From: Shinella sp. WSJ-2
GTDB taxonomy: Bacteria > Pseudomonadota > Alphaproteobacteria > Rhizobiales > Rhizobiaceae
Direction: 5' to 3'
NCBI RefSeq assembly: GCF_003432075.1
Contig: NZ_QWBU01000002.1
Span: 496,001 to 560,000, forward strand
DNA length: 64,000 bases
This document shows, in pieces, positions 15,362-24,501 of the stretch. Below the pieces are notes generated by a model. The model was not told the DNA's origin. It saw only the letters and a list, made by a program, of their open reading frames with translations, and did no database searches. Position numbers and translations under genes: made by a program. Each line of letters begins with the position of its first letter. The first letter of the stretch is position 1.

Positions 15362-15437
15362 GCCCGGATAGCTCAGTTGGTAGAGCAGCGGATTGAAAAT
15401 CCGCGTGTCGGTGGTTCAAATCCGCCTCCGGGCACCA
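15362..15437 (+). tRNA. tRNA-Phe (GAA anticodon)
   Basis: 76-base gene: acceptor GCCCGGA paired with TCCGGGC, D-arm GCTC/GAGC, anticodon stem GCGGA/TCCGC with loop TTGAAAA (anticodon GAA), T-arm GGTGG/CCGCC with TTCAAAT, and encoded CCA. The sequence just downstream drops in GC and carries an integrase remnant, so this gene is the likely attachment site of the island. Confidence 0.98.
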
Positions 15438-15626
15438 TTAAGCCCTTAAATTCATTGAATTTTCGAAAAGCTCTTTGAGCCCGCTTGCGCTGGAAATACG
15501 CTAGCACACGTCTAGCACACCCCGAAAAATTGCTCTTTTCCTTCAAGGCTTGGCGTGCCTACCACAGTCACGCTGTAGCACAATTTTAGCGCATGGTGGC
15601 TAGCAACGTAACAACTTGAGAGTGTC

Positions 15627-16409
15627 ATGTTGCAGCGTACGAAGCTGAACAAACAACCTTTTAGCCTTTTTTTCGGCAACCCGGAGACAGTATCTGGTCC
15701 GTGCGCTTTTCATCCGGTGGCAAGCAGATCAGGAAAAGCCTCGACACCGATGACTATGACGAGGCCCATCATCGGGCGTATCAGATGTGGAGTGAGGCGG
15801 ACTATCGCGTAAAGAACGGACTGACAGCGACTATCCATCCTTTTCATGAAGTCGCAGAGGAGTTCATCAAGCTTGTTGAAAGCGAGAGCGAGCGTGGTAA
15901 TCGCAGCGAGTACCAACCGAGGGATTGGCCTCCAGTCATTCGCCGGTATCTCATCGGCTTTTTGGGCGACAAGTCCATCGATGCAATCCGCGAACCGGAT
16001 ATTGAACGCTATATCGAATGGCGACGAACCTATTGGACGACCGGGCCGGGAAAAGACATCGGATACATCCGCTATGAACGCGGTGGCAAAATCCCGCGGC
16101 GCTCTGCCAAGCACGAGGTGCCTTCTATAAGTCGCCAGCGTGGCGAGCTTGTGATCGTTCGAGCCCTTTTCCAGCAGGCTCTGAAGTGGGGGATACACCG
16201 GCAAGATCGAAATCCCCGACATCAAGGTCCGGAAGAGGGTCGACGATCGACGCCCAAGCTTTACGCCGGAAGAATTTGCACCGCTCATCGCCACGAGCGT
16301 TGAGCGAATTCATCCCGCACCAGGTGGACGAAAAGCTCTTTCTCGGGATGGCCGTGTTCAGCGCCCACCTACAGGGACACAGCTGCTTAAAATTTCGTTC
16401 ACCGATTAG
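15627..16409 (+). pseudogene. Tyrosine recombinase (integrase) remnant
   Basis: Broken phage-type integrase 190 bases after tRNA-Phe. The best frame gives PGDSIWSVRFSSGGKQIRKS, a typical integrase N-terminal strand, then SLDTDDYDEA, the core-binding helix with FLGDKSIDAIREPDIERYI, and ALFQQALKWG. At least two frameshifts are needed: one near 15665-15680 in a T-run, and one near 16190, after which the reading KIEIPDIKVRKRVDDRRPSF and TPEEFAPLI continues in another frame. It then runs to a stop at 16407 without the R-H-R-Y catalytic half. It therefore cannot be active. It points to integration of the following block into tRNA-Phe. Confidence 0.8.
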
Positions 16410-16617
16410 CTCCGCGGGGATGAAAAATTTTACTCACGACATTTCTCTCAATCGGGCAAGAGATGCTAAGAAAATTAACTGCAATAATTTCAAAGCCTTA
16501 ACGAAATTGAAATTTCTCTGCGACGCGAAGTGGTTGCTTAATCGATAGGTTAGCGTCCTCGGCGCCATCTCTCATGAGACGCTTGTGAAAAATGAGCGGA
16601 TCATGAGGTAAGGCACA

Positions 16618-17342
16618 ATGTCTAAGGGTGATCATGCTGTTCGAAGGATCGCCGACAATATTGCCTGGCAAAGATTTTGGCTTTCCGCGATCGCGCTAAA
16701 ACGCGCTCTTGATTTTAAGGCACCTTTCGATTTCAAAGCGGTAGCGAAATCCGGGCCAACACTCCTAGTGGGAGAAGGCAACTTCAGTTTTCCGTAGCCC
16801 TCTCGGATTTACTGGGTAGCGCAACATCGAACATGACGGCGACGACCTTTCAGCCAACGAATGAGTATTCAGATATTACGAGCCAAAATGCGAGAGTTCT
16901 GCGGAGCAGAGGCGTTCGCACGATGGCAAGTGTTGATGCCACAAATCTATCCCAGTGGTTTGGCCGAAGACGGTTTGATTTAATCGTTTTTCAGTTCCCG
17001 AATGTCGGCAGTCGTAACCCTCGTTACGGGCGAAATCCCAACCATATCCTGGTGCGGTGTTTTCTTAAGAGTGCAGCGGCGCATCTTTCAGGCGAAGGGC
17101 AAGTCGCGATTACCGTCGTAAATAGCTCCCACTATGATGGAGCTTTTGATATGGATGGGGCGGTCGAGCGCAATAATTACGCATTGCCTGTTGCCTATCC
17201 GTTCCGCTTTTCGGACTATGTGGGTTACTCGCATGTGAAGACGAAGGACGACGGCGTTGGAACCGTCGACGAGAGCGACGAATTTGTGACCTACGTTTTT
17301 CGGTTAAAGGAGAGGATTGGTCATAAATGGATCACGCCTTAG
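16618..17342 (+). pseudogene. Bmt5-like (DUF2431) RNA methyltransferase gene, one frameshift
   Basis: Two abutting frames make one protein of about 240 residues. The first (16618-16797, 59 codons) ends with LLVGEGNFSFP and a TAG. The second continues in frame -1 with VALSDLLGS, then FDLIVFQFPNVGS, NHILVRCFLKSAAAHL, GQVAITVVNSSHYDGA and YPFRFSDYVGYSHVKT. GEGNFSFS, F-N-F/P-H/N-x-G and the late FR-DY-GY-H are the signatures of DUF2431, whose yeast member Bmt5 methylates N3 of a uridine in 25S rRNA. Losing one T in the run at 16788-16791 explains the break; a minus-one slip on TTT at 16789 would also restore the protein. The end overlaps the dioxygenase gene by 16 bases. Target RNA in bacteria is unknown. 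Confidence 0.7.
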
Positions 17343-17965
17343 ATGCGGCAATCCTACCTCCGGGTGCCATGTACATTACGGAATTCCTTTCCCGAGAGGA
17401 GGAAGAGGCAATCAAAGATCGACTCGACGCCGGAGAATGGAGCAATACGCTTAAGCGCCGCGTGCAGCATTTTGGGTATCTCTATGACTATAGAGCGCGT
17501 GCCGTCACTGCAGACACTTATCTGGGTAAGCTACCTGAATGGCTTGAAACGCTTGCGGAACGATTGGTCGCGCGCGGCTATTTCGTTGATTTTCCAGATC
17601 AAGTGATTGCGAATGAATATTTGCCGGGTCAAGGCATAAGCGCCCACGTTGATTGTGTGCCATGTTTCGATGACACGATCATTTCCATAAGCCTTTTATC
17701 CCAATGCGAGATGATTTTTCGGGAACGGTCCAGTTGCAGATCACTTGCTGTGTTGCTCCATCCACGCTCATGCATATTGCTGAAGGGGGCGAGCCGATAT
17801 GACTGGACACACGAAATTCCAGGCCGAAAGTCAGATGTCGTGGACGGTACGAAGGTGAATCGCGACAGAAGGATATCCCTGACGTTTCGAAAGGTTACCC
17901 AGGCTACTGGAAAATCTTCCAAGGCAGCCTGCGGCTTCTTGGGGCGAGGAATGCTGCCAGCTTAG
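17327..17965 (+). CDS. ALKBH8-like 2-oxoglutarate/Fe(II) dioxygenase (AlkB family)
   Basis: 212 residues. AlkB-type double-stranded beta-helix with the iron ligands in AHVDCVPCFDD (H-x-D) and WTHEI (distal H), and the 2-oxoglutarate arginine in RDRRISLTFRKV. Around them, DTIISISLLSQCEMIF, LLHPRSCILLKGASRYDWTH and EYLPGQGISAHVD follow human ALKBH8 closely, more so than E. coli AlkB. ALKBH8 hydroxylates a tRNA wobble-uridine side chain, while AlkB repairs alkylated bases. The gene starts inside the end of the DUF2431 frame, so the two form one unit and may act on the same uridine. The last 20 residues (after TQATGKSSK) look unrelated to the fold. Confidence 0.78.
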   Translation: MDHALDAAILPPGAMYITEFLSREEEEAIKDRLDAGEWSNTLKRRVQHFGYLYDYRARAVTADTYLGKLPEWLETLAERLVARGYFVDFPDQVIANEYLPGQGISAHVDCVPCFDDTIISISLLSQCEMIFRERSSCRSLAVLLHPRSCILLKGASRYDWTHEIPGRKSDVVDGTKVNRDRRISLTFRKVTQATGKSSKAACGFLGRGMLPA

Positions 17966-18455
17966 CCAGCCGTCGGTTAGCGATATGGGGAAAGCATTTT
18001 GGTGAGAGCCGTAAAACATTTACTGAGAATAGAGTTACTCATCCCCATGAATTCCGAGGGTTCCCCCCGAGCGCCCTTACACCTCGATTGATAGCCCTAA
18101 AATTCGGATATTTTCTGCGGTAGCCGCAGGTTTAAAAATATACTTTCGTTCCGGCTTCGCCGTCGAAGTCGCTCACGATCCAGCCTATATCATAACAACG
18201 GCTTCGACTTTGATTGACTCGACACGAGGTAGCTCAATGAATAGATAGTGTCGTCGTTGCCGTATCGCTCTCAAAAATGGGGCCAGAAGCTCCTTCATTC
18301 ACATGTCGGATAACACGCCATAAGAACGTTTCTTCTCCTGGAAACCTGCTACAGGGAGAATGTCTCGTTTCGAAACCGTAGTCTCTGAATCCCAAAACCG
18401 AGGGCTTTCGGCTTCGCTGCATTATATAAAGCCAACCTGCCACTCAGAGGTTCGA
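17966..18455. other. Intergenic stretch inside the tRNA-Phe island
   Basis: About 490 bases of mixed composition between the dioxygenase gene and ugd. No frame shows a recognisable protein. A short hairpin (CTGCGG, 18115-18120, with CCGCAG, 18124-18129) lies in an AT-rich context without a T-run. The ugd promoter should be here. I see nothing else of note. Confidence 0.4.
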
Positions 18456-19625
18456 ATGGTTAATATCACCGTAGCTGGCATCGGATATGTCGGTCTCGCC
18501 AACGCTATCCTTCTTGCTCAACACAACCATGTCATCGCTTATGACATCGATACACATCGTGTTGCAAAATTGAATGAGCGCACGTCCCCGGTCCTCGACC
18601 CTGATATAGAAACCTATCTGCGCACCAAGCCGCTCCAACTTAAGGCAACCACTGACAATGTAGAAGCCTTTTCGTACGCGGACTTTGTCATCGTAGCAAC
18701 GCCAACAAATTATGATCCGGATAATAACTCCTTCGACACGAAAAGTGTGGAAGACGTCATAAATGAAGTTCGCAAGCTCAATAGTACGGCAACGATTGTT
18801 ATTAAATCCACGATTCCCGTGGGCTATACAGATGCATTGAGGAAAGCCCGGGGCGATAGCCATATATTTTTTTCGCCTGAGTTTTTGCGCGAAGGCAAGG
18901 CGCTCTACGACAATCTCCACCCTTCACGGATTGTGATGGGCGCCGATACGTCCGAAGCGCGGCATTTTGCCCGACTGCTGCAACAAGGTGCTGTAAAACA
19001 GGACATTCCCGCACTTTTCACTGGCTCCGGTGAAGCGGAAGCGATAAAACTCTTTGCCAATACGTACCTCGCCATGCGTGTTGCATATTTTAATGAACTT
19101 GACTCCTATGCCATGTCGCACGGCATCGATACCCGCCAAATTATTGAAGGTGTAGGCCTCGACCCGAGAATCGGCAGGCACTACAATAATCCGTCTTTTG
19201 GCTATGGCGGATATTGCCTTCCGAAAGACACCAAACAGCTTTTAGCCAACTTTGATGAAGTGCCGCAAAATCTTATTCGTGCAGTTGTCGACGCCAACTC
19301 AACTCGAAAAGACTTCCTTGCAGCAAGGATCGTTGCTCACAATCCTGGTGTTGTAGGTCTCTATCGCCTAACGATGAAGGCGGATTCGGACAATTTCCGC
19401 GCTTCCTCCATCCAGGGCATCATGAAGCGCGTTAAAGCGAAGGGCATTCCGGTTATTATCTACGAACCCGATTTCATTGGAGACACGTTCTTTCGCTCCG
19501 AAATCGTACGCGATCTGGCTAAGTTCAAAGAACGCGCGGACATTATCGTCGCAAACCGCCTATCTGATGACATCACAGATGTTCGTGACAAAGTTTTTAC
19601 TCGAGACGTGTTTGGTACAGACTAG
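18456..19625 (+). CDS. ugd: UDP-glucose 6-dehydrogenase
   Basis: 389 residues from the ATG at 18456, chosen because AGAGG lies 5 bases upstream and because the Rossmann motif [15 protein letters not shown] then starts at residue 6 as in homologues. The enzyme oxidises UDP-glucose twice to UDP-glucuronate for surface polysaccharides. Catalytic cysteine in [11 protein letters not shown], and also [26 protein letters not shown] and [29 protein letters not shown]. This is the short (E. coli-like) class. It stands alone between the dioxygenase and an insertion sequence, in low-GC surroundings, and is probably part of the acquired block. Confidence 0.95.
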
Positions 19626-19718
19626 GTATCTACCGCCCTGGTCGGCTATCGATTGCATTGAACGGATGCCTCTAGGCTTTGAACCGCACCGGGTTTGCCG
19701 GAGGCCATTTGGTTTGAG

Positions 19719-20621
<903 letters not shown>

Positions 20622-20625
<4 letters not shown>

Positions 20626-20948
20626 CGTTTGAAGGGGCGGTCGAGCTCCGCCATCGCGAAATAAGCAGACGCCTTGCGCAAAATCTCGTTGGCCTGACGA
20701 AGCTCGCGGTTCTCCCGCTCAAGAGCCTTCATCTTCTCGGCCGCGTCGCTCGGCAAGCCTGCTCGTTTGCCGCTGTTGACCTCGGTCTTCTTCACCCATT
20801 CATGGAGCGTGGCTGGCGAGCAACCGACCTTGCCCGCAATAGATGAAACGGCCGCCCACCGCGACGGGTGCTCTGCCTCGTGATCAAGCACCATACGAAT
20901 GGCGCGTTGGCGGACTTCGGGTGAAAACTTGTTCGTTGTCTTGCTCAT
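20622..20948 (-). CDS. IS3-family transposase OrfA
   Basis: 108 residues: [20 protein letters not shown], then a helix-turn-helix with [20 protein letters not shown] and a leucine-zipper helix [30 protein letters not shown]. This is the DNA-binding half of the transposase. Its stop TGA overlaps the OrfB ATG (ATGA). Intact, but its partner is broken. Confidence 0.93.
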
Positions 20949-21002
20949 ATCGGCTCCACTCCCTCAGAAGTTGGAGCCTCCGGCAAACCCGGTGCGGTTC
21001 AG

Positions 21003-21191
21003 TTCTTGCCACCATACTCCCCTGACTTTTACCCGATCGAGATGGCCTTCTCGAAGCTCAAGGCTCTGCTCAGATAGGGGGCGGCTAGGAGCATCGATGA
21101 ACTCTGGTCCGTCGTCGCCAATTGTCTCCCCGCTTTCAAGCCAGAGGATTGGCGGCACTATTTCGAGGCAGCCGGACATAATCCGGATTAA
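21003..21191 (+). pseudogene. IS630-family transposase, 3' remnant
   Basis: A 62-codon tail of a transposase: LPPYSPDFYPIEMAFSKLKA, then an in-frame TAG, then RSIDELWSVVANCLPAFKPE and DWRHYFEAAGHNPD before the TAA at 21189. LPPYSPD-x-NPIE is the hallmark of IS630 elements, including the final catalytic glutamate. The rest of the element is missing to the left, where the IS3 element ends two bases away. Confidence 0.85.
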
Positions 21192-21221
21192 GTCCAATCT
21201 GCTCTAGTAAACAGGTTGTAG

Positions 21222-22505
21222 CTATTTAGAGATACAAGTCGCCATAAATTCGTCAGTCACAAAGCGGTAAATCACACCTTGACGAGGGTCATCTTTGAGG
21301 GTGCCGTCGATATTACCTTCATATATCAGAGCAAGTCCCCCATGCATCGCGGCGATATCCGAATACCCTGCGGCTCCCTCCGTTAAATCGCAGCGTTTCC
21401 AACTTTCTGCATCATCAGTACTGATTGAAAGCATCAAATTGCGCCGATCTCTAATCGACTCATTATCAGGCCCTTTTTCAGTTTGCTCAGCACTTGCGGC
21501 GGGATAGGAAGCCACGATGCGATCACCATATTTGGTGAGTCCGGCTTGCACAAGCGGAGACAAAAAGGCTTTGTTTACTTCTATTGTCTCGTAATTATCG
21601 CCGAAATCAAAACTGGATGCGGACAGGCGAAAAGGATAGGAACTTCTATTCTTTATCGCAGTCCGTTTTGTAGGCCGCAATAAAGCCCAGACATGACCAG
21701 GCCGGATTTCCACTGCAGCCGTCTCGCCTCCGCGAAGCGGAGAATTACGCGTCGTTGCCGCCTTCCTCCAAGTTATACCGCCGTCACTTGACTTAAGTAA
21801 CCAAGGATAGCCGGGGACTAGAAGGTCGCCATTGGACAATACAATTCCGTGACCAGGCCCAACCCGAACCATATCCGTTACAGGCGTAGAGATATCGACC
21901 AGTTCTGGCGAAGTCCATGTCGAGCCAAGATTGCTACTCTCAATCTTCCATATTTGGTTGGAAAAATAATAACCACAAGTTACGGGGGGCTGTTTCGTTG
22001 AGCATTTGGCTCCATTATATTCACCAGAACTTCTGGTGACGTTGAATAAAAGTATCAATTTTCCTTTCGTTTCCAGTAACGTTGGATTGCCTGCCAGAGC
22101 CATGTTAAAGGGTGATTGCAAAAAATTACTGTATCTAACTATCGATGTCTGCTCGTTCCAACTACGACCCCCGTCTACAGAGCGGCGCATCACAAGATCA
22201 ATGTACCCCCAATCCATGCATTTTTTTGAGTTAAAATTTTCTTTCTTCGCAAGAGAAGGCTGGTCTGGATTGCTTTCGCTTGTTCCATGGCGCCTCTCTG
22301 CAACCGCTATAAGATTTACCCCAATAGAGACTAGGCTTGGAATCCTATAGCATTCTGAAAAATTTGACTTAAACAACCATTTCGGCGGATATTTTTCTTT
22401 TGCACACAGCGTATGTGGTAGAGCGGTGGAACCGATAATGATAAATAATAAGGAAAGAACCTTGTGAAGCGCATTGTATAATATTATTTTATTAATGTTA
22501 GGCAT
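21222..22505 (-). CDS. Secreted exo-alpha-sialidase (GH33 type)
   Basis: 427 residues from the ATG at 22505 (GGGGATT upstream; the longer frame from 22541 lacks a ribosome site). A signal peptide is clear: basic start, hydrophobic VLSLLFIIIGSTA, and likely cleavage after TLCA. Sialidase signatures: YRIPSLV (the F/YRIP motif with an active-site arginine), Asp-boxes SVDGGRSW, SSDGGITW and STDDAESW, plus GGETAAVEI (glutamate) and GAAGYSDIAAMHGG (tyrosine and aspartate). It would cleave terminal sialic acid or a related nonulosonate outside the cytosol. There are no sialate-catabolism genes nearby. It lies between IS remnants and has low GC, which suggests transfer. Confidence 0.88.
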   Translation of the reverse strand: MPNINKIILYNALHKVLSLLFIIIGSTALPHTLCAKEKYPPKWLFKSNFSECYRIPSLVSIGVNLIAVAERRHGTSESNPDQPSLAKKENFNSKKCMDWGYIDLVMRRSVDGGRSWNEQTSIVRYSNFLQSPFNMALAGNPTLLETKGKLILLFNVTRSSGEYNGAKCSTKQPPVTCGYYFSNQIWKIESSNLGSTWTSPELVDISTPVTDMVRVGPGHGIVLSNGDLLVPGYPWLLKSSDGGITWRKAATTRNSPLRGGETAAVEIRPGHVWALLRPTKRTAIKNRSSYPFRLSASSFDFGDNYETIEVNKAFLSPLVQAGLTKYGDRIVASYPAASAEQTEKGPDNESIRDRRNLMLSISTDDAESWKRCDLTEGAAGYSDIAAMHGGLALIYEGNIDGTLKDDPRQGVIYRFVTDEFMATCISK

Positions 22506-22606
22506 AACGTTAATCCCCGTAGCAAGCACTGAAAAAATCATTGAAAATTTTGCAAGAAATATGATGAGAGGGCATCGTTCGACCTATTGGTAAGAGAGGG
22601 GGGCGT

Positions 22607-22708
22607 ATGAATCCGCTTGATCAATATTCGCAGGAATCTATAATTGGCGCAAATGACGTTAGTTATTTTTTGGGAAAATATCGTGTGTCTGGTCTCCAAA
22701 CGGCTTGA
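22607..22708 (+). pseudogene. Short ORF, possible 5' remnant of an interrupted gene
   Basis: 33 codons (MNPLDQYSQESIIGANDVSY and a short tail) after GAGAGGGGGG, which is a fair ribosome site. It is divergent from the sialidase gene and stops just before the IS5-type sequence. It may be the start of a gene cut off by that insertion. No family recognised. Confidence 0.25.
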
Positions 22709-22803
22709 GGATGCGAGTTCCCCTAGGATGGGGACCTGATCAAACTATTGCCGATATTGGCTGGTTCCTTGCTTATTCGGTTTTGACCGCAGGGAGGCTC
22801 TTG

Positions 22804-23598
22804 GTGAGCGATCTTTTCTGGCTTTCGGATGAGGCTTGGTCGGCAATCGAGTCTCATATTCCCAAGAACCAGCCGGGTGCTCCGCGCGTCGATGATCGGC
22901 GCATCATCTCGGGCATTCTCTATGTCCTGAAAGTCGGCTGCCGCTGGCGTGATGTCCCGGCTGAATACGGCCCTGCAAAGACAGTCTACAGCCGATATCA
23001 CCGGGCACGCCGCCGTATCTGGCACCGTATTTTCGAGAAGATGGCTGCCAAGGGGCCGGTCCCGCATGAGCTATCTATCGATAGCACGCACATCAAAGCG
23101 CATCGCTCTGCACAAGGCTCAGAGGGGGGCTTGGGCACAAGCTATTGGTACGTCTCGCGGTGGACGAACAAGCAAAATCCATTGCTTGGCCGATGATCGC
23201 GGCAGACCGGTCGCCTTCAGCCTGACGCCGGGAAATGTCTCAGACATCAGAATGGCAATTCCTTTGCTGGAGATCGCTCGCCCCACAAAGCGTCTTCTCG
23301 CCGACAAGGTATATAATGCTGACAGCCTTCGAGACTGGCTAGGCAAGCCCGCATAAAGGCGATCATCCCATCATCGTAGGCATGAAAGAAATCTTACCCG
23401 CTGGATCAAGGCGCATACAAGCAGAGGAACGTCATTGAGCGCTTGTTCTGCAGGCTCAAAAACTGGCGGCGCATCGCCACAAGATACCACCGCCTTGCCA
23501 CGAATTATCTCGCTGCTGTCGCTCTCGTTTCAGGCCGAATGCTGCAATGCATTTTGACGGCCGCCCAGTTCTCGGCCTTGTTCGAGGGACTGGATTGA
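22804..23598 (+). pseudogene. IS5-family transposase (IS427-like), degenerate
   Basis: Remains of a DDE transposase of the two-frame IS427 kind. Frame one from the GTG at 22804 reads VSDLFWLSDEAWSAIESHIP and ends with HELSIDSTHIKAHRSA (first D). The next frame gives AQAIGTSRGGRTSKIHCLAD and LLADKVYNADSLRDWL (second D). The third stretch, after stops near 23354 and 23385, gives AYKQRNVIERLFCRLKNWRR (E) and ends at TGA 23596. The first shift sits in a G-run and may be a natural programmed site, but the later stops make the copy defective. Terminal repeats were not found. Confidence 0.82.
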
Positions 23599-23689
23599 AG
23601 CGCATCCATGCACCGATCGAGGCGCGTGTTCCAGAAAAGGCGGGATAGTCACCCCGATCAGTCGAATCAGGCTTTGGACAGAGACTCAC

Positions 23690-24000
23690 CAAGTATATCG
23701 ACCTCTATCGTCTTGCGGCCGAGTACGCGCTCCAGAATTGCGATTACGATCTTCCAGCTTCACTTCCGAAGTGCCAACAACCGGCTCGACAGAATCCGCC
23801 GCTGCAGTACCTGCATCATTCTACAGCTTGCGCCACCGGTAAACCAGATTGGGAGCAACGCCATGGCGGCGAGCGGTCTAAGATACAGTTTCGCTTGGCT
23901 CGAAAATCTGCTCGATGATCGGCAGCTTCTGCTCAATTGTCCACCGTCCACAGCAGACGTCACCCGTGATCATCTCGACGCGTTGATACTCGTTAGACAT
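23690..24000 (-). pseudogene. IS3-family OrfA remnant (IS2-like)
   Basis: Read on the minus strand from the ATG at 24000: MSNEYQRVEMITGDVCCGRW, EQKLPIIEQIFEPSETVS, a stop, then TARRHGVAPNLVYRWRKL, a second stop, and EPVVGTSEVKLEDRNR. This is a transposase helix-turn-helix subunit typical of IS2-like elements, inactivated by two in-frame stops. No OrfB is attached. Confidence 0.72.
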
Positions 24001-24117
24001 AAGTCTGTCCCCCAAGCTTATGCTTGAGCCCTCTTTTCGACTGTCCGGTCAAAATGAGAGGCATTTCATGCTGACAAAAAGACTGCTGGGAGTCCTCACA
24101 GCACAAGTCTAAACCAT

Positions 24118-24411
24118 GCCTTATCAGGTCTGCCATCTTGACTGACAATGGTATCAATTTCTCCGATCAGTCGGGCAACCGCAACACCATATTCGACTGA
24201 TGCGCTTTGACATAATCTACGAAGCAACTGGTACAAAGCACCGACTGACCAAACCGAATCACCCACCGGACCAATAGGCAAGTCGAGAGGATGCCCGCAG
24301 CTCAAGACGCTGAGCGCCTCACGCCCACGAATACATCTGCAAAATCCGTACAGCAGAGCCGGATGATTCATTCTAAATCCAATCCACCAGATACCTCAAG
24401 TGAACAACTAA
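24118..24411 (+). pseudogene. IS481-family transposase, 3' remnant
   Basis: ILTDNGINFSDQSGNRNTIF (second catalytic D), then in the next frame MRFDIIYEATGTKHRLTKPN, a deletion, then HEYICKIR and a degenerate tail to the TAA at 24409. This outlines the C-terminal part of an IS481 integrase with several frameshifts and a missing middle. It ends next to the first core gene after the island. Confidence 0.72.
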
Positions 24412-24501
24412 TCGCTGGAACAGTTGATCGGCATCTTCACCCTGTTCCCGTCCGCCCTTTTCGCGTTACAACGTCCAACGACGATTGTGGAGGAGCGGCG
24501 C

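Follow-up and report, generated by a model that had tools for sequence, protein, structure and literature searches.

A decayed gene pair for a DUF2431 methyltransferase and an ALKBH8-like dioxygenase in Shinella sp. WSJ-2, a candidate writer and eraser of nucleic acid methylation

In the 64,000-nucleotide stretch of the Shinella sp. WSJ-2 genome analysed here (hereafter, the window), a gene of the DUF2431 (BMT5-like) methyltransferase family overlaps one for a dioxygenase of the ALKBH8 type, which raises the question of whether two such genes belong together and, if so, what the second enzyme would do with a mark made by the first. Bacterial ALKBH8-like dioxygenases were reportedly also a subject of van den Born in 2009. 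Among the matches listed from the openly licensed literature, which for gene transfer agents together with AlkB were 10 of 316, we found no report of a DUF2431–AlkB pair.

The gene pair of the window and its island

A mobile two-gene unit is present in the window in decayed form. On the forward strand, the N-terminal piece of the methyltransferase gene (16618..16797) encodes 59 aa and then meets a stop, just past the GEGN motif, while the remaining part (16785..17342, also forward) lies in another frame and carries the DUF2431/BMT5-like domain PF10354 (E 2.1e-22, 80.7 bits against a curated cut-off of 24.7 in Pfam). The N-terminal piece alone had no match in Pfam, but it reached 28.6 bits with a model built from alignment A1 and matches 8/8 of the near-invariant columns within its reach; the second piece matches 36 of the 39 within reach (45 columns in all). 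The original prediction had therefore named the right family for this protein, but had taken it for one open frame and missed the frameshift, which falls at the SAM-binding (GEGN) segment and leaves no uninterrupted frame there. The same segment is open in all 41 rows of alignment A3, whose rows were chosen as intact, and programmed frameshifting was set aside because these relatives cross the site in a single frame. The frameshift was read from the assembly, in which a sequencing error may have produced it. A search of the whole 5.14 Mb genome with the DNA of the pair found no second copy.

The dioxygenase gene (17327..17965, forward strand) is a single open frame of 212 aa, encoding an ALKBH8-like Fe(II)/2-oxoglutarate dioxygenase with an HxDCxPC motif and PF13532 (E 3e-20) as its sole Pfam domain, and it overlaps the methyltransferase gene by 16 bases (17327-17342), exactly as had been predicted. 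The protein keeps all 35 residues that are invariant over 47 homologues (the window's included), and the HxD...H iron triad and RX5R motif (H107, D109, H162, R182 and R188) are invariant in all 47 rows. Its C-terminus is about 14 residues longer than in its two closest relatives, from L106 and L107. Naming the enzyme after ALKBH8 is borne out by sequence and by structure: among solved AlkB proteins, the homologue from L002 was closest to human ALKBH8 (89.2 bits, vs. 43.0 for the next protein), which was also the nearest solved fold, by Foldseek E-value, to the model of the window protein (pLDDT 90.1). An ordinary E. coli-type AlkB, the DNA-repair enzyme that would have spoken against the original prediction, was rejected by kinship and by the NCBIfam equivalog cut-offs (30.3 vs. 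267 and 25.9 vs. 231 bits). The DUF2431 protein has a class I methyltransferase fold, but its model matches RNA and small-molecule methyltransferases alike, so that the fold gives no conclusion on the substrate.

That the pair lies in an island was predicted as well, and the surroundings agree: the G+C content drops from about 0.64 to 0.45-0.60 across about 15.4-24.5 kb, and composition, Pfam matches and the list of open reading frames (ORFs) place a low-G+C island with the pair at 15438..24500, the right edge being approximate. Its upstream border is a tRNA-Phe gene (15362..15437, forward strand, found with ARAGORN), about 1.2 kb from the pair and likely the integration site of the island. 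Between the two lies a 200 aa ORF (15701..16303, forward strand) resembling the remnant of a tyrosine integrase, with weak Pfam matches that are both below the curated cut-off (DUF6538, E 8e-4; Phage_int_M, E 0.01). No second copy of the tRNA-Phe end was found toward the right side of the island in the window, and the genome as a whole has one copy. The island also holds a nucleotide-sugar dehydrogenase (18360-19625) and a BNR-repeat, sialidase-like protein (21222-22541), with ORFs between them that were recognised by eye as transposase-like.

Conservation of the pairing and damage to its parts

PF10354 above the curated cut-off is rare, being found in 3/199 genomes of the family, 4/347 of the order and 5/398 of the phylum; the window's own genome is counted in each of these samples, which makes nine different genomes overall. 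Matches under the cut-off (L008, L012-L016) were left uncounted, and three of them (L008, L012 and L013) resemble, by eye, other RNA methyltransferases. The dioxygenase gene stands directly downstream in six of the nine genomes (the window, L002, L005, L006, L009 and L007, the last of these behind a frameshifted DUF2431), and L004 has just a DUF2431 fragment, at the edge of its contig. In L070 and L004 (Hoeflea MAG; both contigs measure 28601 bases), a reverse transcriptase gene (RVT_1, E 8e-21) adjoins a badly damaged DUF2431 remnant at the contig end. At L010 and L011, which belong to another proteobacterial class and another sequence clade, no ALKBH8-like dioxygenase was found within 1.5 kb, hence DUF2431 activity need not require an antidote. 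By eye, the DUF2431 proteins of these two loci (L010:1474-2271 and L011:1210-2043) have a C-terminal zinc-finger look (CxxC...H...H).

A scan of one genome per species with methyltransferase patterns provided 54 related DUF2431 loci, which by their titles come from alphaproteobacteria, except that three are titled Micavibrio and two give no more than Pseudomonadota. Of these, 52 are followed on the same strand by a dioxygenase gene or what remains of it, and the remaining two (L067 and L070) stop at contig edges. Among the intact methyltransferase genes measurable for both, the dioxygenase core starts at most 73 nt past the methyltransferase stop in 40/41; at L043, more than 700 bases lie between the two genes. 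One Rhodobacteraceae contig has two DUF2431–dioxygenase pairs in tandem (L030:889-4637). The protein distances of methyltransferase and dioxygenase are correlated over 36 pairs (Mantel r 0.90, with 0/5000 permutations as high), at a mean identity of 47% for the former and 55% for the latter. A lack of conserved co-occurrence in other genomes had been named beforehand as one finding that would refute the original prediction, and the prediction is not refuted on this point: the pairing, conserved at nearly all loci and with correlated distances, is not due to chance, and the two proteins co-evolve.

Damage could be judged at 47/54 loci, those set aside being interrupted by contig ends (L029, L035, L036, L052, L067 and L070) or by a run of N (L065). 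Both genes are intact in 35 of these, the methyltransferase alone is damaged in 8, the dioxygenase alone in 2 and both in 2 (L046 and L055, tallied apart); L030 was tallied once and L043 as intact. The two loci with damage to the dioxygenase alone are L032 and, doubtfully, L062, where the gene has an internal shortening and may be functional. In-frame stops are TGA in L046 and L060 and TAG in L047. A DUF2431 gene that lacks a dioxygenase gene was seen at none of the 47 loci, with the dioxygenase damaged in 4. The asymmetry of 8 vs. 2 is not significant in this single-search set, with lesions taken as proportional to length (one-sided p 0.07), and when lineages are compared, about 11 vs. 2, the one-sided p is 0.016 for samples that are mixed: the 11 lineages, i.e., 12 label changes on the tree minus L065, draw on the 54-locus scan and on other searches (the window, L007, L078, L081, L106 and L107), while the 2 dioxygenase-damaged loci stem from the scan only. 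Because its loci were found via methyltransferase patterns, the scan misses wholly lost methyltransferases.

Searches that started from the dioxygenase complete this picture. Within the window's genus it was found in 3/21 genomes, and the methyltransferase is intact in 0 of those three; for L106 and L107, just its C-terminal part was found as a remnant, so that the loss is not confined to one assembly. Pairwise dN/dS values of the dioxygenase among the three genus copies are 0.17, 0.23 and 0.32, not lower than the 0.13-0.19 between three intact relatives, for which dS is near-saturated, and the dioxygenase of L107 has lost one invariant residue. In the class sample, 27/385 genomes have a dioxygenase match at E 1e-6, and among the 16 matches above 200 bits, 8 adjoin a DUF2431 gene (three of these damaged), 1 adjoins another methyltransferase, 1 lies at a contig end and 6 have neither methyltransferase in the fetched stretch. 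L076, among these six, is apparently the gene of L060 again, and there a broken DUF2431 was found at a distance of about 1.5 kb upstream. Upstream of this copy there are ORFs that, by eye, look like helix-turn-helix and RelE-like proteins, and the same genome has a second ALKBH8-like gene (L098:1483-2602) that shares bases with an unrelated ORF of 173 aa, which belongs to no known family.

Mobility, plasmids and viral contigs

The unit is patchily distributed among the genomes sampled and is associated with the ends of tRNA genes. Fourteen of the 54 loci have a tRNA gene no more than 1.5 kb away, and tRNA genes are denser near the pairs (15 in 145 kb) than farther out (14 in 664 kb; p 4e-5, the loci being treated as independent); the nearest one points its 3' end toward the pair in 14/14 loci, over 11 isotypes. 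Exact matches to the 3' part of tRNA-Phe occur near the pair of L020 (Neorhizobium alkalisoli, 54 bp) and near the surviving dioxygenase and the methyltransferase remnant of the genus relative L106 (46 bp), no whole tRNA having been found at either match, and these partial copies are a trace of the kind that tRNA-targeting integrases leave. A small two-gene unit on mobile DNA, its genes overlapping or close, is also the arrangement of toxin–antitoxin systems. As to whether defence islands surround the pairs, which had been asked at the outset, there are 322 ORFs within 3.5 kb of pairs, and the nearest 150, which were checked, include few toxin–antitoxin or defence genes by raw count (4 Fic, 3 ParD, 2 AbiEii and 2 ParE). 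Neighbour families present at 4 or more loci are mostly widespread ones (histidine kinases, ABC ATPases, integrases and, by look, Fic), at varied distances. A conserved third gene was rejected, as no neighbour family has a fixed place, and PADLOC gave no match up to E 1 for the three gene pieces of the window pair.

On plasmids, the dioxygenase was found in pTB4 of Roseobacter denitrificans, in three plasmids of Picosynechococcus and in one of Streptomyces, besides weaker relatives (152 records in all). The pTB4 protein (R. denitrificans OCh 114) sits inside the DUF2431-paired clade of the dioxygenase tree; on this 5.8 kb plasmid the gene adjoins a hypothetical gene near annotated BrnT and BrnA (L101:520-1570). 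In the Picosynechococcus plasmids (L102:3052-4576, L103 and L104), the dioxygenase gene follows, after 31 bases, a class I methyltransferase unrelated to DUF2431; in an alphaproteobacterial genome, a distant relative of this enzyme (24% over 102 residues, pairwise E 3e-7) has its gene overlapping that of the dioxygenase (L083:1495-2915). An Abi gene is found close to the pAQ5 copy. Among viral contigs, 24 loci carry the dioxygenase, 11 of them (L111-L118, L120, L122 and L125) directly after a portal-like gene and before head genes, and at L121 and L124 a portal-like gene is also nearby. An HK97-type portal and capsid were confirmed in two of the 11 portal-linked loci, which are possibly prophages or clusters resembling gene transfer agents. 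Two changes are required on the dioxygenase tree for the label 'portal', and another two for the second methyltransferase. No DUF2431 was seen among the ORFs called at the viral-contig loci, several of which begin close to the end of a contig, and when the viral contig collection was scanned for DUF2431, no relative was found among 67 candidate stretches. Similarly, the L002 DUF2431 protein had no tblastn match at E 1e-5 in the plasmid and phage collections, and the dioxygenase had none at E 1e-5 in phage records.

A putative writer and eraser, and the alternatives

The biochemistry of a bacterial ALKBH8-like protein is available for R. denitrificans OCh 114 (Zdzalik 2014, PMC4051686), the same strain as that of pTB4, and the two proteins are presumed to be the same. 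According to the accessible part of that article, the enzyme removes the N3-methyl from cytosine (m3C) in DNA in vitro and also repairs etheno adducts, its stronger substrates, while uncoupled activity was not detectable; in E. coli, it rescued neither methylated RNA phage MS2 nor chloroacetaldehyde-treated DNA phage. It left mcm5U in yeast tRNA unconverted, and an Agrobacterium knock-out neither showed an altered tRNA-Gly(UCC) nor was more sensitive to the two DNA-damaging agents tried. The results on mcm5U and tRNA-Gly(UCC) disfavour the hydroxylation of wobble uridine considered in the original prediction. The nucleotide-recognition lid is described there as similar to that of ALKBH8, and the authors favour an unidentified RNA substrate. 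E. coli AlkB is stated in the introduction to remove 3-methylthymine, and m3U and m3T were not found among the lesions tested in the part of the article accessible to us (PMC4051686).

We tentatively favour, as a plausible reading built on family analogy, that the pair is a writer and an eraser. The DUF2431 enzyme would methylate a pyrimidine of nucleic acid on its pairing face, probably at N3 of uridine, or of thymidine; base pairing would be blocked by this mark, with possible harm to the cell or to an invader, and the AlkB enzyme would oxidise the methyl off and protect the carrier, as antidote or repair. The base, the nucleic acid, the harm and the reversal are what we infer. A BMT5-like enzyme would be expected to write a methyl at N3 of a pyrimidine, and this mark, together with the removal of m3C and the occurrence of the dioxygenase without DUF2431 but, at the judgeable loci, never the reverse, favours writing and erasing over two steps of one pathway. 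The second class I methyltransferase family at the same position before the dioxygenase likewise suggests an exchange of partners before the same type of dioxygenase, and the one-sided occurrence and damage lend indirect support to an antidote role. In its strongest form, which is possible though somewhat unlikely, the pair would be an addiction or defence module, in which a BMT5-like toxic N3-methyl on uridine or thymidine is countered by the AlkB enzyme as a catalytic antitoxin, with prophages and plasmids retaining just the antitoxin for immunity. Several observations run against a writer and eraser: the survival of a lone dioxygenase also fits an independent job, an intact methyltransferase stands beside a damaged dioxygenase in L032 and perhaps in L062, the L107 protein has lost an invariant residue, dN/dS in the genus is not below that of intact copies, defence neighbours are few, and the published protein prefers etheno adducts and was negative in several assays (PMC4051686).

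The same kinds of enzyme in conserved order could instead carry out a sequential hypermodification, the methyltransferase making a modified uridine in tRNA or rRNA that the dioxygenase then hydroxylates, by analogy with the two halves of animal ALKBH8, which act on mcm5U. The kinship of the dioxygenase to ALKBH8 in sequence and fold, its similar lid and the RNA substrate preferred by the authors of the published study (PMC4051686) speak for such a pathway, which we nevertheless regard as unlikely, since loss of the first enzyme should let the second-step one decay, whereas the dioxygenase survives alone; moreover, neither the R. denitrificans protein on mcm5U nor the Agrobacterium knock-out on tRNA-Gly(UCC) gave a sign of it (PMC4051686), and one would hardly expect a housekeeping tRNA pathway as a patchy unit at tRNA ends whose dioxygenase occurs on plasmids too. 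It is also quite improbable that the pair serves phage defence, with the methyltransferase marking, upon infection, phage RNA or DNA or the translation machinery of the host itself while the dioxygenase limits the damage, and, as part of the same joint reading, that dioxygenase-only prophages hold the counter-measure. Mobility and patchiness, the viral-contig dioxygenases (24, with 11 after a portal gene) with no DUF2431 seen among the ORFs called there, the Fic, AbiEii, ParD and ParE neighbours and the Abi gene near the pAQ5 copy would suit phage defence, but defence genes are few among the neighbours, the window pieces had no PADLOC match, and it is a special case of writing and erasing, indistinguishable here from a plain addiction module. 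An independent repair of DNA adducts by the dioxygenase, merely travelling with a methyltransferase of unrelated RNA substrate, would account for the repair of etheno adducts in vitro (PMC4051686) and for the genes in prophage-like head clusters, where a DNA role is natural; we judge it to have a similarly low probability, given the tight co-inheritance at mean identities of 47% and 55%, the one-sided occurrence and the second methyltransferase family at the same position. Finally, a frameshift in a single assembly could be an error, but a mere artefact, in which the pairing too is chance, is very improbable in view of the pairing at 52/54 loci and the C-terminal methyltransferase remnants in the genus relatives L106 and L107.

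The 2014 study, in its accessible part, left the substrate of bacterial ALKBH8-like proteins open (PMC4051686), and a conserved methyltransferase partner offers a direct route toward it: the mark of the partner can be identified, and then it can be asked whether the dioxygenase removes or alters that mark. The pair is thus a clue to a possible role of these orphan bacterial enzymes. If the mark proved toxic and erased, this would be a reversible methylation-based addiction or defence system acting on nucleic acid, of which we found no report among the matches listed from the openly licensed literature; and if the addiction or defence module were true, the orphan bacterial ALKBH8 proteins would naturally be expected to serve as antitoxins or for immunity.

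Compared with known systems, the dioxygenase agrees well with the bacterial ALKBH8-like enzymes of Zdzalik (2014), which likewise have a single AlkB domain, are mainly alphaproteobacterial and resemble ALKBH8, but the accessible part of that article names no bacterial methyltransferase partner, unlike the pair described here, and the word 'operon' is absent from its main text (PMC4051686). Animal ALKBH8, like the pair, combines an AlkB domain of this subgroup with a methyltransferase; however, it is an RRM-AlkB-ZnF protein with a Trm9-like methyltransferase fused into the same chain, whereas here the genes are separate, the bacterial dioxygenase is a single-domain protein of 212 aa, with neither RRM, zinc finger nor Trm9-like part, and its partner is BMT5-like or of a second class I family. 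Yeast Bmt5, which makes m3U2634 of the 25S rRNA, is matched by the BMT5-like domain of the window gene, PF10354 being above its cut-off, and is not known to have an AlkB partner. The toxin–antitoxin system DarT-DarG, in which a writer on nucleic acid and the matching eraser are encoded next door to each other, would follow the same writer–eraser logic as that proposed for the present pair, using ADP-ribose instead of a methyl group, and no sequence kinship between the two systems is expected.
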